From: an uncultured Bacteroidales bacterium
GTDB taxonomy: Bacteria > Bacteroidota > Bacteroidia > Bacteroidales > Paludibacteraceae
Assembly: GCA_949282265.1 (NCBI GenBank)
Contig: CASDOZ010000017.1
Coordinates: 1 to 39,364, forward strand
DNA length: 39,364 nt
Direction: 5' to 3'
This document shows positions 1-12,542 of this stretch, piece by piece. The position numbers were made by a program, and so were the translations under genes. A model generated the notes under the pieces. The model saw nothing but the letters and a program-made list of their open reading frames with translations, was not told where the DNA came from and ran no database searches. Each line of letters begins with the position of its first letter. Within the stretch, counting starts at the first letter, position 1.

Positions 1-3000
1 GCCTTTCATGAAACTTATCCTGTCCTTTATCTGCAAATCCTCCTCATTGAAGATAACGTAGTTTTTCGCATTATCAGAACGTCCTCCTGTTGTAAATTGG
101 GCAGGGTATGATATTCCGACAAAACCTGCTCTTGAAAGAAATTCACTTGCTGCTTTGTCGCTGCCTAAACGTGATTTGTCGGATAATATGGCGTACACCC
201 GGTTAAAGTCATTACCCTTCACAACGGGGCGCATAATCTTATCAGCCATTTCATTCTCAAACTCCTGTTTGGCGGCATTCTCTATAATCTTTGCCTGATT
301 GTCAGACATCGGTTTCTCCCAGTCAAGATAATTTTCCCCCGTATTGTCGGGTATTTCTACGGTGTATAAAAAAACATTGCCTTCTGGAAGTTTTTTTCCT
401 GATTTTATTACTTTTATCTGTCCTCTTACTCTTTTTTTATCAGTCCACGTTTCAGTTAACAAAGAGTTTAAATATTCTAAAGAAGCATATTTATCTCCAT
501 TATTTGTTTTGAGAGTATTTCTTGCAAGTTCATTTATTATTCTATTCTCTTTGTATTTATCCTCCAACATCTTTTCGGCATACGTCTTTCCTATTCCTTT
601 TACCTCGGTGACATAGCTTCCCCATCCGTATGCCTGCGCGCCTTCGCCTGTTCCCATGAAATTATGGTCGAATGCGTCAAATTTTGCACCGCTGCCGTGG
701 TAGGCGGTCATAAGGCGTGATTTTATATCATCTGCCATTGCAGTTTCGGCATCTTTTCGTATCTTTGCAACGTCGGTGCTGCGGATAGCGTTTCGGACGA
801 GTGTATCAGGGGCAGTCTTTGACTGAGCATTGGTAGCCGCAGATGACTTTTCAGCCCACATGGTTATGGTTTCCATATCATTTGGGCTGTTTTTGTATTC
901 CTTTTCTACTACTACCACATAACCGTTGCTTAAATCCTTGTAGAAACGGACACTTTCACGACCGCTCATGTCCGTACTGCTCTTTTCCACACGGTCGGGA
1001 GCAACCATGATATATGGTATCAGCTCCAAGTCTTCTTCACGCAATGGTATGCTGCCATCCGAAAGCTTTTTGCCGCCTTCTCCGTGGTTGTTCAATATGT
1101 GCACAAGGCTGTTTGATGTAATGTTGTGGCTGTCAAAGTCACGACCCATCACATTTCGGATTTTTGTTTTGACGGAAACAGGCAAATCTATCGTAAGAGA
1201 CTTTCCCCTTACGCCACGCTTTACCCAATTGCGTATCGTGCGTGCCGTCCTGTCCAATGCGCCCATCCTCGCCTGCAATACCGCTTCACCGCCTCCGGCC
1301 AGCTGCTCCATCTGTTCGTTGCTCAACACTTCAACAGGGATTCCTGCTTTGCCCAACATCTCCGTAACGGAATCAAAGGCCAGTTGCTGGGATTCGGTCA
1401 TTGAAGGTATGGAAACAGGAGCAATGTTGAATAAAACCACATTACCCGTTTCCTCGTCAACTTTTTCCTGAATGGCATTGAACAGGTTGTCAAATGCGCC
1501 GTCAAGAATATCAAAATCGCTTTCTATCGGATAGGGATAAAAACTGTCCACATATTCTTCAAAGCCTGTCGGAATAGGATTGTTCGACAAATAGTCATTA
1601 ACAATACCTTTCTCTGAAAGTTTCCTTTCCACCCAAGACGCAAATGCCCTCGCACCCAATTCCGTAGGTTCTTTCCAATAGCTTGATTTAAGCGATGCGT
1701 ACATTGAACTGCGCTTCCCGTAATCACTCGCGTTGATATCATGTACAAGTTTCTTGAAAGCGTCCGTTATCTCCTTGCGCTCCTTGTCGCTTGAAAAATC
1801 CTTTCTTTCCCTGTCATACTTATAACCACCCCGCTCTGTGTTAAAACCGTGTTTCTCTCCTCTCCGCTTGGCAAAATAGTTGTCCAAAGCATGCCACCAT
1901 TCATGGGCAAGAGAACCAGCACCCTGCGTTTTTGTCAGGTTTATCACCGTCCTTCCGGATTCGTAATGGGCGGAAACCCTTCCGCCTCCTCTTGCACCGA
2001 ATGCTATGGCAAGTTCTCCGTTCAAAGACAGTGAACGGGGACTTTTGCCAATTGCCTCGGACAAGTCCATCAACGCGTCAAAAGCTCTGTTCAGCGCATC
2101 CTGTCTATCTGACTGGTTCGTCCAGTTGCCGAACTCAACACCCCGAAAACCGAATGTATTCATGAATTCATCGGCCGTCACATCTTTACCGGAACGCCAG
2201 TCCTTGCCTTCCCTTTCCCTGTTGTCCTTGAATGAAACCTCTGTCTTCTCCTTCATTCTTGAATACTGTGAAACAAGGTCATTGTAGTTGTTATTTACAT
2301 AATCAATCGCTTGTTTTGCAGTATCAAATCCGTTTTGTATGACAATGGAAGGCTTACCTTTGATGGTGATAAACGATTTACCGTCTTTCCTTGATGTATA
2401 TACCGAAAACGCTATCTTCTTTTCTACCTTTGTGGATTCCGGAGATGAGAAGTTCCGCAATGCCTGTACCGCCTCTTCCTTCGTGTCATATATGCCTCCG
2501 TATTTGCCCGCTTTCGAAACATACCATTTGCCCTCTGCACTGATCCATTCTCCATTTGCACCATAATGACCTGCCGTATGATCCAATTGCTGCAACTCCG
2601 CATCAGCCGTGTCCGCATTCCCGTCAAAGCCGCCCAAAGCCATGTATGCATCATACTTTCTTTTTACACCTTCTATCCCGAGAATCTTGTCAGACCATTT
2701 ACGTTGAACGCCACCTTCCGAAGAAACAAGCCTCAATGCCATGGTGTAAATAGAGAACACATTGCTCACCCATCTTCTTAACTTGTATTCCGTCCGGGGT
2801 TTCGATGGTATGAACTTTTTCATCGTTTCAATGAGTGTCACAACCTCGTTCGGAACGCCCTCTTCTCTCAATGCCGCATAATCAAAGTTATATACCTTGC
2901 TCAACGGAAGCTTCGCTATATCGGACAAAATATCTGAATTGTCCTTTTCTATATCTTTTATCTTTTCCGAATACTCCTTTATCCTGTCCTTTCTCGCACC

Positions 3001-4896
3001 GCCAATCTTCTCACCTACGTCCTCAATCTTTTCCTTGCTTGCGGAGGCTTGCCGGGTTGGCTGTTGTGATGCCTCTTGCACATTCGGAGTAGTTTCATTA
3101 CCTTTGTCTGCAGATAACTCCTGTCCAGTCGGATATTGAGCGAAATTGGGTCGCTCCAGAAGTGACGATTGTTCAGGAGTTATTTCATCACTCCTGTAAA
3201 TCACATCTTCATTTTGTGGCAAATTTGCATTATTCCTGCGACCGAATACAGTAGAAATGGCATTCACTTCAATGTCACGACCTGCATTCTTGACATCTGC
3301 ACCGATAACCACAAACTCGCCACTATCTGTCCGGACAGTCGTGTAAATGCGGTATGAATCCTCCTTGCTGTCAAGTTTGGCAATGGCAAAAGGATTCTGC
3401 AAGGCATTGGGTAACTGCGACCAATCTTTTTCTGTCAGTGCGTGTGAACCGTCCTTGTCAAGATGACGGGCAATTACACCGTACTTGATTGTAAACTTGT
3501 CACCACGCAATCCGAGGTCTTTCATGAATTTTGGTGTCTTGGCCACATCAAAGAATGAACGTTGGAATAGCTTTGAGGCCGCTCCCTTTCCTTTCGTGTA
3601 AAGTGTCCTTACCGCGTCAAGCAGTGTAGCAGGCTTTGCGCTTTCAGTCTCCTGTTGCGTGCCATCCTCTCTGCTTTCTCTTATTCCTTTTGTTGCCGGC
3701 TGTCTGCTTTCTGCGATTTCTGACGGCCATTCCGGAACTCGTTCACTTTCCCGAACGCTTGTTGAAGCATTGCCGGTTTTTGTTTCCGTACTTCCTGAAA
3801 CGGGGGCAATGTTATCTGCAGCTTGTTTAGAACCCCCATCTGCCCATTCGTTGTCCCTGTATATTTCCGTGTAACTTCCGTCTGCGTTTCTCCTTTCTAT
3901 GCTTTCGACTTCATCAAGGGTATATTGGCCATCTGTTATCCATCCGTCTGCAAGCTGACCGTTTTTCATTACAGCACGGTTGCCATCGGATTTTTCCTTG
4001 TCAAAATCCATTTTTAGCTTGACACGATAGCCACTTGATGCACTTGTGGTCGGCAGTTCGGAAGCGGTTACATCAATCTTGCCACCAATCCTTCTGCTTT
4101 TTATCTTTCCGGAACTACGCAGCTCGTCAACCTCACTTTGACCGACATGCCTGTATACATTCCTGTGCTGCCAAGGTATCCCATACAAATCAAGGTCTCT
4201 CTGAGCTGCTTCGTCACCATTTCTCGCCGCATCAATTTCAGCGTCAATGTCACTTGGTTCATTACGGCTCAAAGCTGCGTCCGCATTTGTTCCATGCACC
4301 ACATTTTTTTTGCCGGAACTATTGCCGGTTGCAGAACTTTCGCTACCTTTGCGAACAGAAGTATCGGGCACATTACCGTTTGAAGGTGTTTGATTGTCGG
4401 ATTTTTCTTCACCTTGCAAAGTGCTGTCAGTAGCCGACTGCTTATTCTGCACTTCGGAGGCAGACCATACTTCTTTCTTATTCTTTCCGTATTCATTTCT
4501 GAAAATTCCACCGCTATTAACACCCCAATAGCTACCGTCATTTGAAAGTTCTACATAGATAGTGTTATTGTGGCTATCCTCAATTTGTAACAGGTAAGTT
4601 CCATTTGATTCTCCAACACTATTTTCGCCTTGGCTGATTCGTTTGTAGTTTTGGCAAACATATTCTACAAATTCTTCAACTGAATCAAATCCGGCATTTC
4701 GTATTTGCCCACCGTGTCGTTTTTCAATGTGAATAAGTCCATACTTTGAATTACCACGACTTAATTTGATAGGAGCAGGAGTTAGGCCTGTATCAGCCTT
4801 AATCTCACCAAATACTGTTGTTCCTGATGAAGATAGCACGAAAGGTGAACCATCTTCATCAAATTCGGCATCAGAAGTATTTACGGTCGTTCCCAT
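1..4896 (-). CDS. Giant polyvalent mobile-element protein (nuclease-like, zincin and ADP-ribosyltransferase domains), 3' end outside window
   Basis: The minus-strand frame is open for 1632 codons from ATG at 4896-4894 to the window edge; I checked every in-frame triplet and found no stop. Visible parts: an N-terminal HIEKRHG-containing domain (about residues 20-165), like the barnase/EndoU/RelE-type nuclease domains of polyvalent proteins; a low-complexity linker; a MuF-C-like domain (LPNALQNPFAIAKLD, about 490-555); a charged coil; an LPD-type region ending in a zincin motif HEWWH (998-1002); a PBECR3-like nuclease domain (about 1213-1345, NWVKRGVRGKS and NSPNDMETI); and an ART domain starting YHGSG (1399) and ending NYVIFNEEDL. 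Known of the family: such proteins are carried by phages and conjugative elements and are thought to be delivered with the DNA to act on the recipient. ATG 4896 overlaps the upstream gene by 16 bases with AAGGTGAT before it. Domain names are from memory of motifs; the ART and zincin calls are firmest. Confidence 0.92.
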   Translation of the reverse strand, partial: MGTTVNTSDAEFDEDGSPFVLSSSGTTVFGEIKADTGLTPAPIKLSRGNSKYGLIHIEKRHGGQIRNAGFDSVEEFVEYVCQNYKRISQGENSVGESNGTYLLQIEDSHNNTIYVELSNDGSYWGVNSGGIFRNEYGKNKKEVWSASEVQNKQSATDSTLQGEEKSDNQTPSNGNVPDTSVRKGSESSATGNSSGKKNVVHGTNADAALSRNEPSDIDAEIDAARNGDEAAQRDLDLYGIPWQHRNVYRHVGQSEVDELRSSGKIKSRRIGGKIDVTASELPTTSASSGYRVKLKMDFDKEKSDGNRAVMKNGQLADGWITDGQYTLDEVESIERRNADGSYTEIYRDNEWADGGSKQAADNIAPVSGSTETKTGNASTSVRESERVPEWPSEIAESRQPATKGIRESREDGTQQETESAKPATLLDAVRTLYTKGKGAASKLFQRSFFDVAKTPKFMKDLGLRGDKFTIKYGVIARHLDKDGSHALTEKDWSQLPNALQNPFAIAKLDSKEDSYRIYTTVRTDSGEFVVIGADVKNAGRDIEVNAISTVFGRRNNANLPQNEDVIYRSDEITPEQSSLLERPNFAQYPTGQELSADKGNETTPNVQEASQQPTRQASASKEKIEDVGEKIGGARKDRIKEYSEKIKDIEKDNSDILSDIAKLPLSKVYNFDYAALREEGVPNEVVTLIETMKKFIPSKPRTEYKLRRWVSNVFSIYTMALRLVSSEGGVQRKWSDKILGIEGVKRKYDAYMALGGFDGNADTADAELQQLDHTAGHYGANGEWISAEGKWYVSKAGKYGGIYDTKEEAVQALRNFSSPESTKVEKKIAFSVYTSRKDGKSFITIKGKPSIVIQNGFDTAKQAIDYVNNNYNDLVSQYSRMKEKTEVSFKDNREREGKDWRSGKDVTADEFMNTFGFRGVEFGNWTNQSDRQDALNRAFDALMDLSEAIGKSPRSLSLNGELAIAFGARGGGRVSAHYESGRTVINLTKTQGAGSLAHEWWHALDNYFAKRRGEKHGFNTERGGYKYDRERKDFSSDKERKEITDAFKKLVHDINASDYGKRSSMYASLKSSYWKEPTELGARAFASWVERKLSEKGIVNDYLSNNPIPTGFEEYVDSFYPYPIESDFDILDGAFDNLFNAIQEKVDEETGNVVLFNIAPVSIPSMTESQQLAFDSVTEMLGKAGIPVEVLSNEQMEQLAGGGEAVLQARMGALDRTARTIRNWVKRGVRGKSLTIDLPVSVKTKIRNVMGRDFDSHNITSNSLVHILNNHGEGGKKLSDGSIPLREEDLELIPYIMVAPDRVEKSSTDMSGRESVRFYKDLSNGYVVVVEKEYKNSPNDMETITMWAEKSSAATNAQSKTAPDTLVRNAIRSTDVAKIRKDAETAMADDIKSRLMTAYHGSGAKFDAFDHNFMGTGEGAQAYGWGSYVTEVKGIGKTYAEKMLEDKYKENRIINELARNTLKTNNGDKYASLEYLNSLLTETWTDKKRVRGQIKVIKSGKKLPEGNVFLYTVEIPDNTGENYLDWEKPMSDNQAKIIENAAKQEFENEMADKIMRPVVKGNDFNRVYAILSDKSRLGSDKAASEFLSRAGFVGISYPAQFTTGGRSDNAKNYVIFNEEDLQIKDRISFMKG

Positions 4897-5090
4897 ATCA
4901 CCTTGCCGTTCTGCAAGGCGTTCTTTATTTCCGCTTCTTTCGCTATCTCTTCCAGTTCTTCCTGCACTGTCGGTTGTCCCGTTTCCGTTCTGAACCCGTT
5001 CTCCTGACGGAGCACTTCCATCGCTTCCTTGTCGCCATTGTTGGCCTGTTGCACTACCGCCAGCCAATACATTGCTTCTCCGTTGTCCAT
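4881..5090 (-). CDS. Small 69-aa protein upstream of the polyvalent gene
   Basis: A short acidic, probably helical protein (GDKEAMEVLRQE, EELEEIAKEAE) with no family that I recognise. Its stop overlaps the start of the giant gene by 16 bases in another frame, which suggests translational coupling. The alternative frame through the same stretch (that of the giant gene) reads as Gly/Ser/Arg-rich low complexity, so the 69-aa frame looks the better coding frame. The ATG lies only 5 bases from a CRISPR repeat; the next in-frame stop upstream (5109-5111) is inside that repeat, so no longer form exists in this contig. If the join at about 5095 is artificial, the natural gene could be longer. Confidence 0.6.
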   Translation of the reverse strand: MDNGEAMYWLAVVQQANNGDKEAMEVLRQENGFRTETGQPTVQEELEEIAKEAEIKNALQNGKVIWERP

Positions 5091-5095
5091 TGTAT

Positions 5096-5217
5096 GTTGT
5101 TTCTGATGTCAAAGATACAAGATTTGAAAGGAACTCACAACTACAGACCTTGCAACGACAAAGACCGCCTTGTTGTTTCTGATGTCAAAGATACAAGGTT
5201 TGAAAGGAATACCAAAA
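5096..5217 (-). CRISPR. Two-repeat, one-spacer CRISPR remnant, type II-C style
   Basis: Repeat 1 is 5096-5141 (46 bases, ends GTTGT and ACAAC), spacer 5142-5171 (30 bases), repeat 2 is 5172-5217. The period is 76. The first 38 bases of the two repeats differ at one site (A5122/G5198); the last 8 bases of repeat 2 are degenerate, as is usual for the outermost repeat. The 46+30 geometry, the GTTGTGAG start on the minus strand and the internal TATCTTTG fit type II-C arrays of Bacteroidota as I remember them. No cas9, cas1, cas2 or tracrRNA is visible within the window. The array stops abruptly on its left side, where the mobile-element genes begin. Strand is given as the expected crRNA direction. 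Confidence 0.8.
5110..5141 (-). promoter_or_regulatory. Promoter inside CRISPR repeat 1
   Basis: Read on the minus strand, repeat 1 starts GTTG, then 20 bases, then TATCTTTG (+ strand CAAAGATA, 5110-5117). This matches the Bacteroidota -33/-7 consensus. A start about 6-7 bases further on would give a leader of only about 10-15 bases before the ATG at 5090. In type II-C systems promoters inside repeats are known to drive crRNA synthesis; here the same element faces the polyvalent genes. Confidence 0.55.
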
Positions 5218-5430
5218 ATGGCGATAAAAAAGTTTGCTTTACCACTGCTTTAAAACTTCATAAGAAAATGTGAAAGGACAAGGACATGATTATCAAATTA
5301 TTCTATCCGTATTAGGCTTTAAGTTCAAGAAGCGCCAAATAATATAAAATAAGTGGAAAAAATAATTGAGAAGATCGGGGCCATTATGAATAAAATAAGT
5401 GCTCAAGATGGTAATAATTTTATTTGTCTG
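5218..5430. other. AT-rich intergenic stretch with no gene seen
   Basis: Between the CRISPR remnant and the mtnN promoter I see no ORF with coding character, no cas fragment and no convincing anti-repeat that would mark a tracrRNA. It is AT-rich and lacks obvious repeats. Confidence 0.5.
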
Positions 5431-5461
5431 TTTGCATGAATGCGGATTTTGTGTATCTTTG
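5431..5461 (+). promoter_or_regulatory. Promoter of the mtnN operon
   Basis: TTTG at 5431-5434, 19-base spacer, TATCTTTG at 5454-5461, a full match to the Bacteroidota consensus, about 50 bases before the ATG at 5514. Confidence 0.75.
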
Positions 5462-5513
5462 TAATTGCCTTAAAGAAATAACACCATTTGTAAGAACATA
5501 GATACAACGGATT

Positions 5514-6278
5514 ATGAAACTTGGATTAATAGGGTCGGCGCCCGAGGACATGGAAAGGATTCTGAAAACGATTGGCAACAAACGAATCCATGAACATGGC
5601 AACCGTGTTTTTTATGAGGGTACATTGTTGGGAATACCGGTTGTCGCAGTCTTTTCGCGTTGGGGCAAAGTGGCGGCAGCGGTTACGGCGGCTAATCTGA
5701 TTATCGAGTACGGCGTTGATCATATCTTTTTTACGGGTGTTGCCCGGGCTTTGTCCGGCGACCTGCATGTTGGGGACGTGGTTGTCGCGCAGCGGCTTTT
5801 CCAGCATGACATGGATGCCCGTCCGCTGATGCGGCGTTTTGAAGTCCCCTTGACTGGCAAAACTTCTTTCGAGATAGCGGAGAAACAGGTGGAAATGTCG
5901 CGCCAGGCGGTGTACAATTTTTTGAAGAATGCGAAGGATTTCCGTGCCGCCTTGGTCGAAAATGACATTGAACAGCCTCGCTTGTTCGTGGGTGATGTTG
6001 CGTCGGGCGATTTGTATCTCAGTACGCAAGATATGTGCAAGGCTTTGAACAGGAACTTGCCGTCGGTGTTGTGTGCCGATATGGAAAGTGCTGCCGTTGC
6101 CCAGGTTTGCGACGATTATGGCGTCCTGTTGTGTGTGGTCAGGATTATTTCGGACAGTTTTGAGGAAAGCCGCCACGCAGATACGGCTAGGAACTTTGTG
6201 GAGAGGCACAGCGCGGATTATTCGGTCGCTATTATTGGTGAATATGTTGCTTTGCTGCAAGAAAATGGATTATTGTAA
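5514..6278 (+). CDS. mtnN: 5'-methylthioadenosine/S-adenosylhomocysteine nucleosidase
   Basis: 254 aa, PNP/UDP-phosphorylase superfamily. The family cleaves adenine from MTA, SAH and 5'-deoxyadenosine, recycling by-products of SAM-dependent methylation and radical-SAM chemistry in the cytosol. Visible: N-terminal KLGLIGSAPEDMERI (the family normally has an acidic catalytic residue here, E11/D12), GVARALSGDLHVGDVVVA matching the GxAG..GDVVV region, the substrate-binding motif CADMESAAVAQVC, and RIISDSFEES with the catalytic Asp. It is slightly longer than the E. coli enzyme (about 232 aa) because of an insertion after the GDVVV region (FLKNAKDFRAALVEND). First gene of an operon with the CYTH gene 7 bases downstream. 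Exact substrate preference is inferred from the family; a related nucleoside hydrolase role cannot be excluded. Confidence 0.85.
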   Translation: MKLGLIGSAPEDMERILKTIGNKRIHEHGNRVFYEGTLLGIPVVAVFSRWGKVAAAVTAANLIIEYGVDHIFFTGVARALSGDLHVGDVVVAQRLFQHDMDARPLMRRFEVPLTGKTSFEIAEKQVEMSRQAVYNFLKNAKDFRAALVENDIEQPRLFVGDVASGDLYLSTQDMCKALNRNLPSVLCADMESAAVAQVCDDYGVLLCVVRIISDSFEESRHADTARNFVERHSADYSVAIIGEYVALLQENGLL

Positions 6279-11795: not shown

Positions 11796-12110
11796 ATGTA
11801 CGCAGTAGTAGAAATTTTGGGACAGCAATTCAAGGCAGAAGCTGGCAAGAAATTGTTCGTTCACAGAATGGAAGAGGCCGAAAGAGGCTCGCAAGTAGAA
11901 TTTGAAAAAGTTCTGCTGCTTGATAACGAAGGTGTTATCACGGTAGGAGCACCCACCGTAGAAGGGGCGAAAATCGTATGTGAAGTGTTGTCGCACGTAC
12001 GTGGTGACAAAGTGATTGTTTTCCACAAAAAACGTCGTAAAGGTTACAAAAAACGCAACGGCCACCGTCAGAACTTCACGGAAATATTAGTAAAAGAAAT
12101 TGTAGCTTAA
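11796..12110 (+). CDS. rplU: 50S ribosomal protein L21
   Basis: 104 aa, starting [20 protein letters not shown] and containing the highly conserved [12 protein letters not shown] and [21 protein letters not shown] segment near the C-terminus, which binds 23S rRNA. Normal length for the family. First gene of the usual L21-L27 pair; rpmA starts 20 bases downstream. The promoter and a structured leader are described separately. Confidence 0.98.
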
Positions 12111-12130
12111 CCGATTAAAAAGAAAAGAAA

Positions 12131-12397
12131 ATGGCACATAAGAAAGGTGTTGGTAGTTCCAAGAACGGTCGTGAATCGGAAAGTAAGCGACTCGGAGTGA
12201 AAATCTTTGGCGGACAGTTTGCCAAAGCCGGAAATATTATTGTACGTCAGCGCGGTACGGTACATCACGTAGGCGAAAATATCGGTATGGGCAAAGACCA
12301 TACGTTGTTTGCTTTGGTGGATGGTATCGTTGAATTTAGAAAAAGAAAAGACAACAAGTCTTTCGTTTCTATCAAACCGATAGCGGAAGCCAATTAA
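12131..12397 (+). CDS. rpmA: 50S ribosomal protein L27
   Basis: 88 aa, starting [20 protein letters not shown] and with the signature [17 protein letters not shown] and [16 protein letters not shown]27 reaches the peptidyl-transferase centre with its N-terminus. There is no N-terminal extension of the kind that Firmicutes cleave. Second gene of the rplU operon; a hairpin and a long terminator follow. Confidence 0.98.
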
Positions 12398-12416
12398 GTT
12401 TAAGCATCCTGATATG

Positions 12417-12439
12417 CGTGGAGTAGTTTAGCTACTCGC
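12417..12439 (+). other. Hairpin downstream of rpmA
   Basis: GAGTAG (12421-12426) pairs with CTACTC (12432-12437), extended by GCG/CGC with a bulge. There is no T-run. It could be an RNA-processing or 3'-stabilising hairpin. Confidence 0.4.
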
Positions 12440-12467
12440 TTGAGAGGCTTATCTGATAAAGTTATAG

Positions 12468-12514
12468 AATCTCCTGTTGTTTTGCGGTATCGTAAAAGGC
12501 AGGAGATTTTGTTG
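12468..12514 (+). terminator. Terminator of the rplU-rpmA operon
   Basis: AATCTCCTG (12468-12476) pairs with CAGGAGATT (12500-12508), and the inner TTTTGCG/CGTAAAA pairs over a GTAT loop, giving an almost continuous hairpin of about 16 bp followed by TTGTTG. It lies 28 bases before serS, which has no clear promoter of its own; partial read-through into serS is possible. Confidence 0.7.
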
Positions 12515-12542
12515 ATTATAAACTATAGAAAAACAAAAAATT

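Follow-up and report, generated by a model that had tools for sequence, protein, structure and literature searches.

A 2019 study in staphylococci reportedly described junctions at which a phage and a CRISPR locus were connected at a spacer and its target, and work by Varble et al. in 2021 is said to document prophage integration into the CRISPR loci of Streptococcus pyogenes. Recombination between spacers and phage targets is also reported in PMC8616872. Here we describe a comparable join at the tail of a CRISPR array from an uncultured member of the Bacteroidales. The window, which is the whole stretch of DNA analyzed, comprises the entire 39,364-base contig C17 of a draft genome (G000; 2.47 Mb in 28 contigs). 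It was compared with G001, the sole second genome of the genus included, a metagenome-assembled uncultured Bacteroidales with SPAdes-style contig names, and with G215 from another genus of the same family (Paludibacteraceae); the cases discussed for all three come from draft genomes. Loci on G000 contig C5 and G001 contig C9 are referred to as L009 and L039, respectively.

We consider it probable that the contig leaves the tail of a native type II array, crosses its second-last spacer (5066-5095) and continues in the corresponding protospacer within a DarB-like gene of a Bacteroides-type phage, whether this crossing was made in the cell or by the assembler. The 30 bases would most likely be spacer and protospacer at once. 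As the window is a complete contig, its phage part spans only the interval from the contig end to the join.

Architecture of the join

The features around the join are collected in Table 1. The original prediction described two 46-base repeats with a period of 76, a 30-base spacer and a degenerate outer copy, and all of these are present. Because the perfect copy is identical to eight of the ten C5 repeats, a chance pair of repeats is excluded. The last repeat of the G001 array is degenerate too and occupies the same position as that of the window. The crRNA sense corresponds to the minus strand of the window, as judged from the anti-repeat beside cas9, and no PADLOC cas family was detected in 10 of the larger frames between 5514 and 21140, in agreement with the prediction that no cas genes lie near.

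Table 1. Coordinates of the array tail, the joined phage gene and the right flank in the window
Feature	Position	Strand	Remarks
Fragment of large polyvalent DarB-like phage-type gene	1..5095	-	Truncated by the join on one side and by the contig end on the other
Short 69-codon ORF lying within the polyvalent gene in a different frame	4881..5090	-	Start ATG 5090-5088
PAM-side flank of 5066-5095	5057..5065	-	Reads GGCTGGCGG on the minus strand; assigned by position
Putative second-last spacer and phage protospacer	5066..5095	-	30 bases adjoining the repeat; left-side repeat absent
Perfect 46-base CRISPR repeat	5096..5141	-	Identical to 8 of 10 repeats of C5 and to one trailing repeat of G001
Last array spacer, 30 bases	5142..5171	-	Between the two repeats
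Degenerate terminal repeat	5172..5217	-	6 of 46 bases differ, mostly at the outer end
Phosphorylase-superfamily gene, right flank of array	5514..6278	+	PF01048

The gene to the left of the join matches Pfam families LPD5, LPD1, PBECR3 and MuF_C above their cut-offs as well as PHROG 616, and has 112 relatives in IMG/VR, of which the best 80 of 112 were kept. Its coding frame is the minus-strand open frame of 1,704 codons that runs from 5112 to the contig end. Two Bacteroides phages resemble the window in DNA up to the join: BKO1-TP3 (PQ571269; 79% identity over 169 bases), in which the gene is DarB-like, and BS-TP4 (PQ571277; 82% over 146 bases), in which it is labelled 'hypothetical protein'. 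Within 5066-5095 the identities are 27/30 and 26/30, respectively, and in the next 30 bases they fall to 10/30 in both. Aligned on one diagonal, the window agrees with the two phages at 14-18 of 20 positions per bin up to 5094 and at 5-10 of 20 beyond, whereas BKO1-TP3 and BS-TP4 remain 19-20/20 alike across the same point. No further DNA match was found between window positions 1-5300 and the 16.2 and 14.6 kb fetched from BKO1-TP3 and BS-TP4.

The break in the phage gene and the repeat edge are no more than one base apart, and the adjoining 30 bases are of spacer length; similarity to the phages thus takes in one spacer length beside the repeat and ceases at its edge. In both phages the giant frame reads through the join point and continues about 5 kb further upstream. 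The original prediction placed the join 5 bases from a first codon. An ATG does stand five bases inside the edge; the phage gene itself is not cut just before its start, its long frame (1-5112) continuing upstream in the phages. The ATG opens the short nested frame, which has 67% amino acid identity over 54-55 residues in the two phages and 39% in IMG/VR contigs L077 and L148, and which may be a real overlapping gene; a query with this ORF against the viral contig collection matched 18 stretches, none of which was confirmed.

Since similarity to the phages is lost in the midst of their coding frame, no more than one base from the repeat edge, the interpretation of 5066-5095 as both spacer and target is the best supported of the three that had been proposed; the accompanying suggestion that the assembler made the crossing survives as one of two venues. 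We infer that 5066-5095 is a true spacer, the assembly lacking its other repeat, and that the crossover took place through sequence identity of spacer and protospacer. Another of the proposed explanations invoked a mobile element that entered the array and eliminated what remained of it; transposition or site-specific recombination would be the route of entry. Foreign DNA does abut the array, and a repeated sequence does break the C5 array, yet the joined sequence corresponds to the middle of a 16.7-kb gene of BKO1-TP3 and not to the end of an element, and four of the five joins considered below are clearly inside genes, with the fifth near a gene's start. Insertion of an element is thus not supported, and we regard it as very improbable.

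GC skew lies between -0.10 and -0.24 in each 1-kb bin of 1-5000 (five bins) and changes to +0.13 in 5001-6000. Such a switch near the join fits a change of origin there, although gene direction alone could produce it.

The native array and its cas operon

The original prediction called for a search of the remaining genome for cas9 and an array with the same repeat, and both are present on contig C5. The end of this contig carries ten repeats (eight identical, one with a single change and one broken by another sequence) and nine spacers, adjoining cas2, cas1 and cas9, which match TIGR01573, TIGR03639 and TIGR01865, respectively, all above their own cut-offs. Spacers measure 29-30 bases across C5 and the window. 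A tracrRNA anti-repeat matching 13/13 bases of the repeat lies at L009 6952-6964, about 100 bases upstream of cas9, and is followed by what appears by eye to be a terminator-like stem and T run. G000 thus combines regular repeats and spacers, cas9-cas1-cas2 and a tracrRNA anti-repeat, as a type II array does, and the CRISPR assignment is borne out by repeat, array, cas operon and anti-repeat within one genome. Between cas1, cas2 and the array on C5, which was inspected as bearing on subtype II-C, there is no long ORF.

At the very end of C5 (L009 1-98) a repeated sequence splits a CRISPR repeat. This sequence has nine matches in the genome including itself, with one other at 100% and the rest at 73-93%. 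Because the C5 array is interrupted in this way, the assembly lacks the part of the array that would connect C5 with C17, and the C5 half breaks off before it could reach spacer 5066-5095.

In G001, cas9-cas1-cas2 and 22 repeats are followed further along by an array tail built like that of the window, with a perfect copy of its repeat variant, one spacer and a degenerate repeat, and then by the same flanking genes, the phosphorylase-superfamily protein of the window being 83% identical to that encoded beside the G001 array tail. As the G001 array tail adjoins the same genes, we conclude that the window from 5096 onward is native chromosome. This synteny also bears on the remaining proposal, that the phage carries a mini-array of its own. 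Its repeats would then touch phage DNA, as they do here, but the genes that follow them are chromosomal, and a pattern scan of viral contigs for the repeat core returned one contig, a cas1-cas2-array locus with phage-like genes behind it. A phage-borne mini-array is therefore not supported and seems to us scarcely credible. The contig recovered by that scan, L243 (IMGVR_UViG_3300029998_001016), is filed as viral; in it cas1, cas2 and a three-repeat array are followed by genes that look phage-like by eye.

As a separate observation, the regions containing cas9 and tracrRNA look exchanged between the two species (L009 2151-7063 on G000 C5 versus L039 13488-17966 on G001 C9). Cas1 is 97% identical between G000 and G001, and the DNA flanking the cas9 region is 88% and 94.5% identical; between those flanks there is no blastn similarity, and the Cas9 proteins (1566 and 1424 amino acids) are alike only in patches. 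The tail repeats of G001 resemble the G000 variant and its 22 other repeats represent a second variant, as if the repeat had followed a new tracrRNA; the G001 anti-repeat was recognized by eye.

Searches for protospacers and a PAM

The original prediction also proposed a search for an identical copy of 5066-5095, and none was found. The stretch occurs once in the G000 genome, with neither the spacer nor the phage sequence present in a second copy, and the exact 30-mer is absent from the viral and genome contig collections (in which near-identical records are possibly omitted), the best match being 27/30. The three visible flanks read GGCTGGCGG, GGCACATCA and TAAAATTAA, from which no PAM was established; the Cas9 proteins of G000 and G001 are very different.

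The 31 other spacers of G000 and G001, a set that left out one trailing G001 spacer, were compared with both phage stretches, and none aligned with fewer than 10 mismatches (control with the reversed G001 insert, 11). Similarly, the best of 82 G215 spacers against the insert of that genome had 10 mismatches, as did the reversed control. Given that the other spacers are without a match, the case for targeting of these phages comes from the joined units themselves. A search of the retrieved viral loci with the 31 spacers and three join units, allowing 7 mismatches at most, recovered the two phage matches of 5066-5095 already described, two matches with 7 mismatches and nothing else. Neither of two queries with array sequence against phages yielded a protospacer that could be used among the matches listed (15 of 22 records for one of the queries); repeat-only matches had E values of about 0.01-0.04 and the rest 0.5 to 9.

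An unannotated stretch of 41 bases, ~88% like the CRISPR repeat (query L039 10500-12160), is present in Riemerella phages, RAP44 among them, usually at one place per phage genome and at five places in CRP19. Solitary phage-borne repeats are described as RNA anti-CRISPRs in PMC10651486, and the Riemerella stretch may be of this kind or may be due to chance.

Inserts joined at both ends

In G001, 3,632 bases of phage DNA (L039 6881-10512) lie between two repeats, with the joins inside a 110-kb contig. The leader-side edge enters a head-morphogenesis/ADP-ribosyltransferase frame at a conserved stretch. Of 35 phage relatives found, 10 were examined, and 9 of these 10 read [K/Q]YL..P at the edge stretch (L043 and L044 being alike there), while all 10 run on upstream of the edge. 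L042, the closest relative overall, reads ECLNDP, with ECL in place of KYL, and its similarity in DNA sets in 112 bases from the edge. L075 is the one relative whose DNA match extends almost to the edge, the others beginning further in. L042, an IMG/VR contig, carries both genes of the G001 insert in the same arrangement. The other edge is weaker: protein similarity to L042 and L048 sets in nine bases into the insert, and in L042 the gene itself seems to begin no more than about ten codons ahead of that point. When the insert, short of a single base, was used as a query, G001 returned one copy and G000 none. The repeats on the two sides of the insert belong to different variants, which would be expected from a loss of the array units between two spacers.

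The G215 insert comprises 987 bases between repeats 83 and 84 of the array and encodes a YoeB-type toxin (PF06769) and a partner. Its outer frames are cut at both repeats, and their homologues in G165 (58% and 53% amino acid identity) extend past those ends. The cut genes matched no Pfam or PHROG family, for which reason a phage or mobile origin of this insert is only a possibility. Against phages the insert gave one weak match covering 9% of the query, and within its genus 12 of 48 genomes matched some part of it, mostly over short lengths. Taken over the three genomes, four of five joins are clearly inside genes and the fifth is near the start of one.

A survey of arrays, from which G000 and G001 were excluded because they had prompted it, scored gaps within arrays and not one-sided joins. 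Among 40 regions fetched an array was detected in 36, and a gap of more than 100 bases was present in 2 of the 36; G215 was the only case among the 36 arrays with cut genes at both edges. The gap at L213 (G633) was not counted as an insert, given that its edge genes are uncut and the outer repeat is degenerate; here a small gene pair that looks toxin-antitoxin-like by eye (11823-12523) lies between the degenerate outer repeat and the array. G511, the only single-contig genome with an array in the survey, contained no insert. We note that at the array ends of L196 and L202 (G205 and G071) the final repeat is interrupted in its middle by a short inverted-repeat insertion.

One contiguous stretch between two repeats, as in G001 and G215, might also be expected if kilobase-long foreign DNA had been placed there in a single adaptation step. 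Cas1-Cas2 is not known to take up kilobase lengths. With 22 and 83 other repeats ahead of them, these inserts occupy the old part of the array, yet their reading frames are open. In G001 one repeat variant gives way to another across the insert; the corresponding change in G215 is uninformative, because the variant beyond the insert also occurs once within the array. Acquisition as a giant spacer is, in our judgment, very improbable.

Origin of the crossing

Two venues share the probable reading of a passage from spacer to protospacer. In the first, homologous recombination between the array spacer and the phage target would have made the crossing in the cell, to which we assign somewhat less than an even chance. 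A crossover of this type would generate a join at the repeat edge inside the phage gene. In crRNA sense the order in the window is repeat, spacer, PAM side and phage. Under the ordinary rules of type II systems, the repeat after a spacer pairs with the tracrRNA and is needed for the guide. A recombined spacer retaining only one repeat would be predicted to give no working guide against the phage copy that keeps its PAM side, and the join would be self-tolerant by geometry, since the spacer lacks a following repeat that pairs with the tracrRNA.

In the second venue the same crossing would have been made by the assembler only, across a 30-base word common to spacer and phage, and the chimera would reveal the targeted phage; we place this only marginally below the first venue. 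The draft state of G000 in its 28 contigs, the single occurrence of the spacer and phage stretch in the genome, and the metagenomic assembly of G001 are all consistent with such an artifact, and arrays are weak points of assembly: 8 of 20 regions beside cas9 were short because the contig ended, with the array within 60 bases of the contig end in 4 of these 8. Against the assembler, short-read assemblers usually finish with words of more than 30 bases, longer than this spacer, and two such errors would be needed in one G001 contig, with two more for G215 if its insert is of the same kind. The position of the G001 joins inside a 110-kb contig with a SPAdes-style name also speaks for the cell. 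The similar two-sided join in G001, and perhaps that in G215, makes real recombination plausible, and the usual word sizes together with the two errors needed in G001 lead us to lean very slightly toward the cell, although all the cases come from draft genomes.

A broader model, which we consider rather doubtful, is that the older portions of type II arrays in Bacteroidales undergo repeated replacement in living cells, fragments of the very elements they remember taking their place through recombination between spacer and protospacer. In this model a first crossover would bring the element in, and remaining spacers that target it would favor a second crossover at their own protospacer, trimming the insert. 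The product would be tolerated, as each target copy that keeps its PAM would have lost one repeat and hence its guide.

If the joins are real, CRISPR spacers would act as landing sites for phage pieces in the chromosome, erasing old immunity at the same time, and such recombination would occur outside the laboratory species in which it was reported. If they are an effect of assembly, a single contig still names a likely pair of host and phage, and phage genes beside arrays in draft genomes should be treated with caution as potentially chimeric.

Comparison with described systems

No earlier report of such joins was found among the open-licence papers searched. The join in the window resembles the staphylococcal junctions of 2019 in that a phage is connected to a CRISPR locus at a spacer and its target. 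It differs in that the site is the array tail of an uncultured Bacteroidales, known from assembled sequence, and in that G001, and perhaps G215, is joined at both ends of the insert. With the Streptococcus pyogenes case of Varble et al. 2021 it shares the presence of phage DNA in a CRISPR locus, whereas the joins described here lie inside phage genes. The kind of event is thus already known, and its place, its two-sided form and its recurrence would be new if real.
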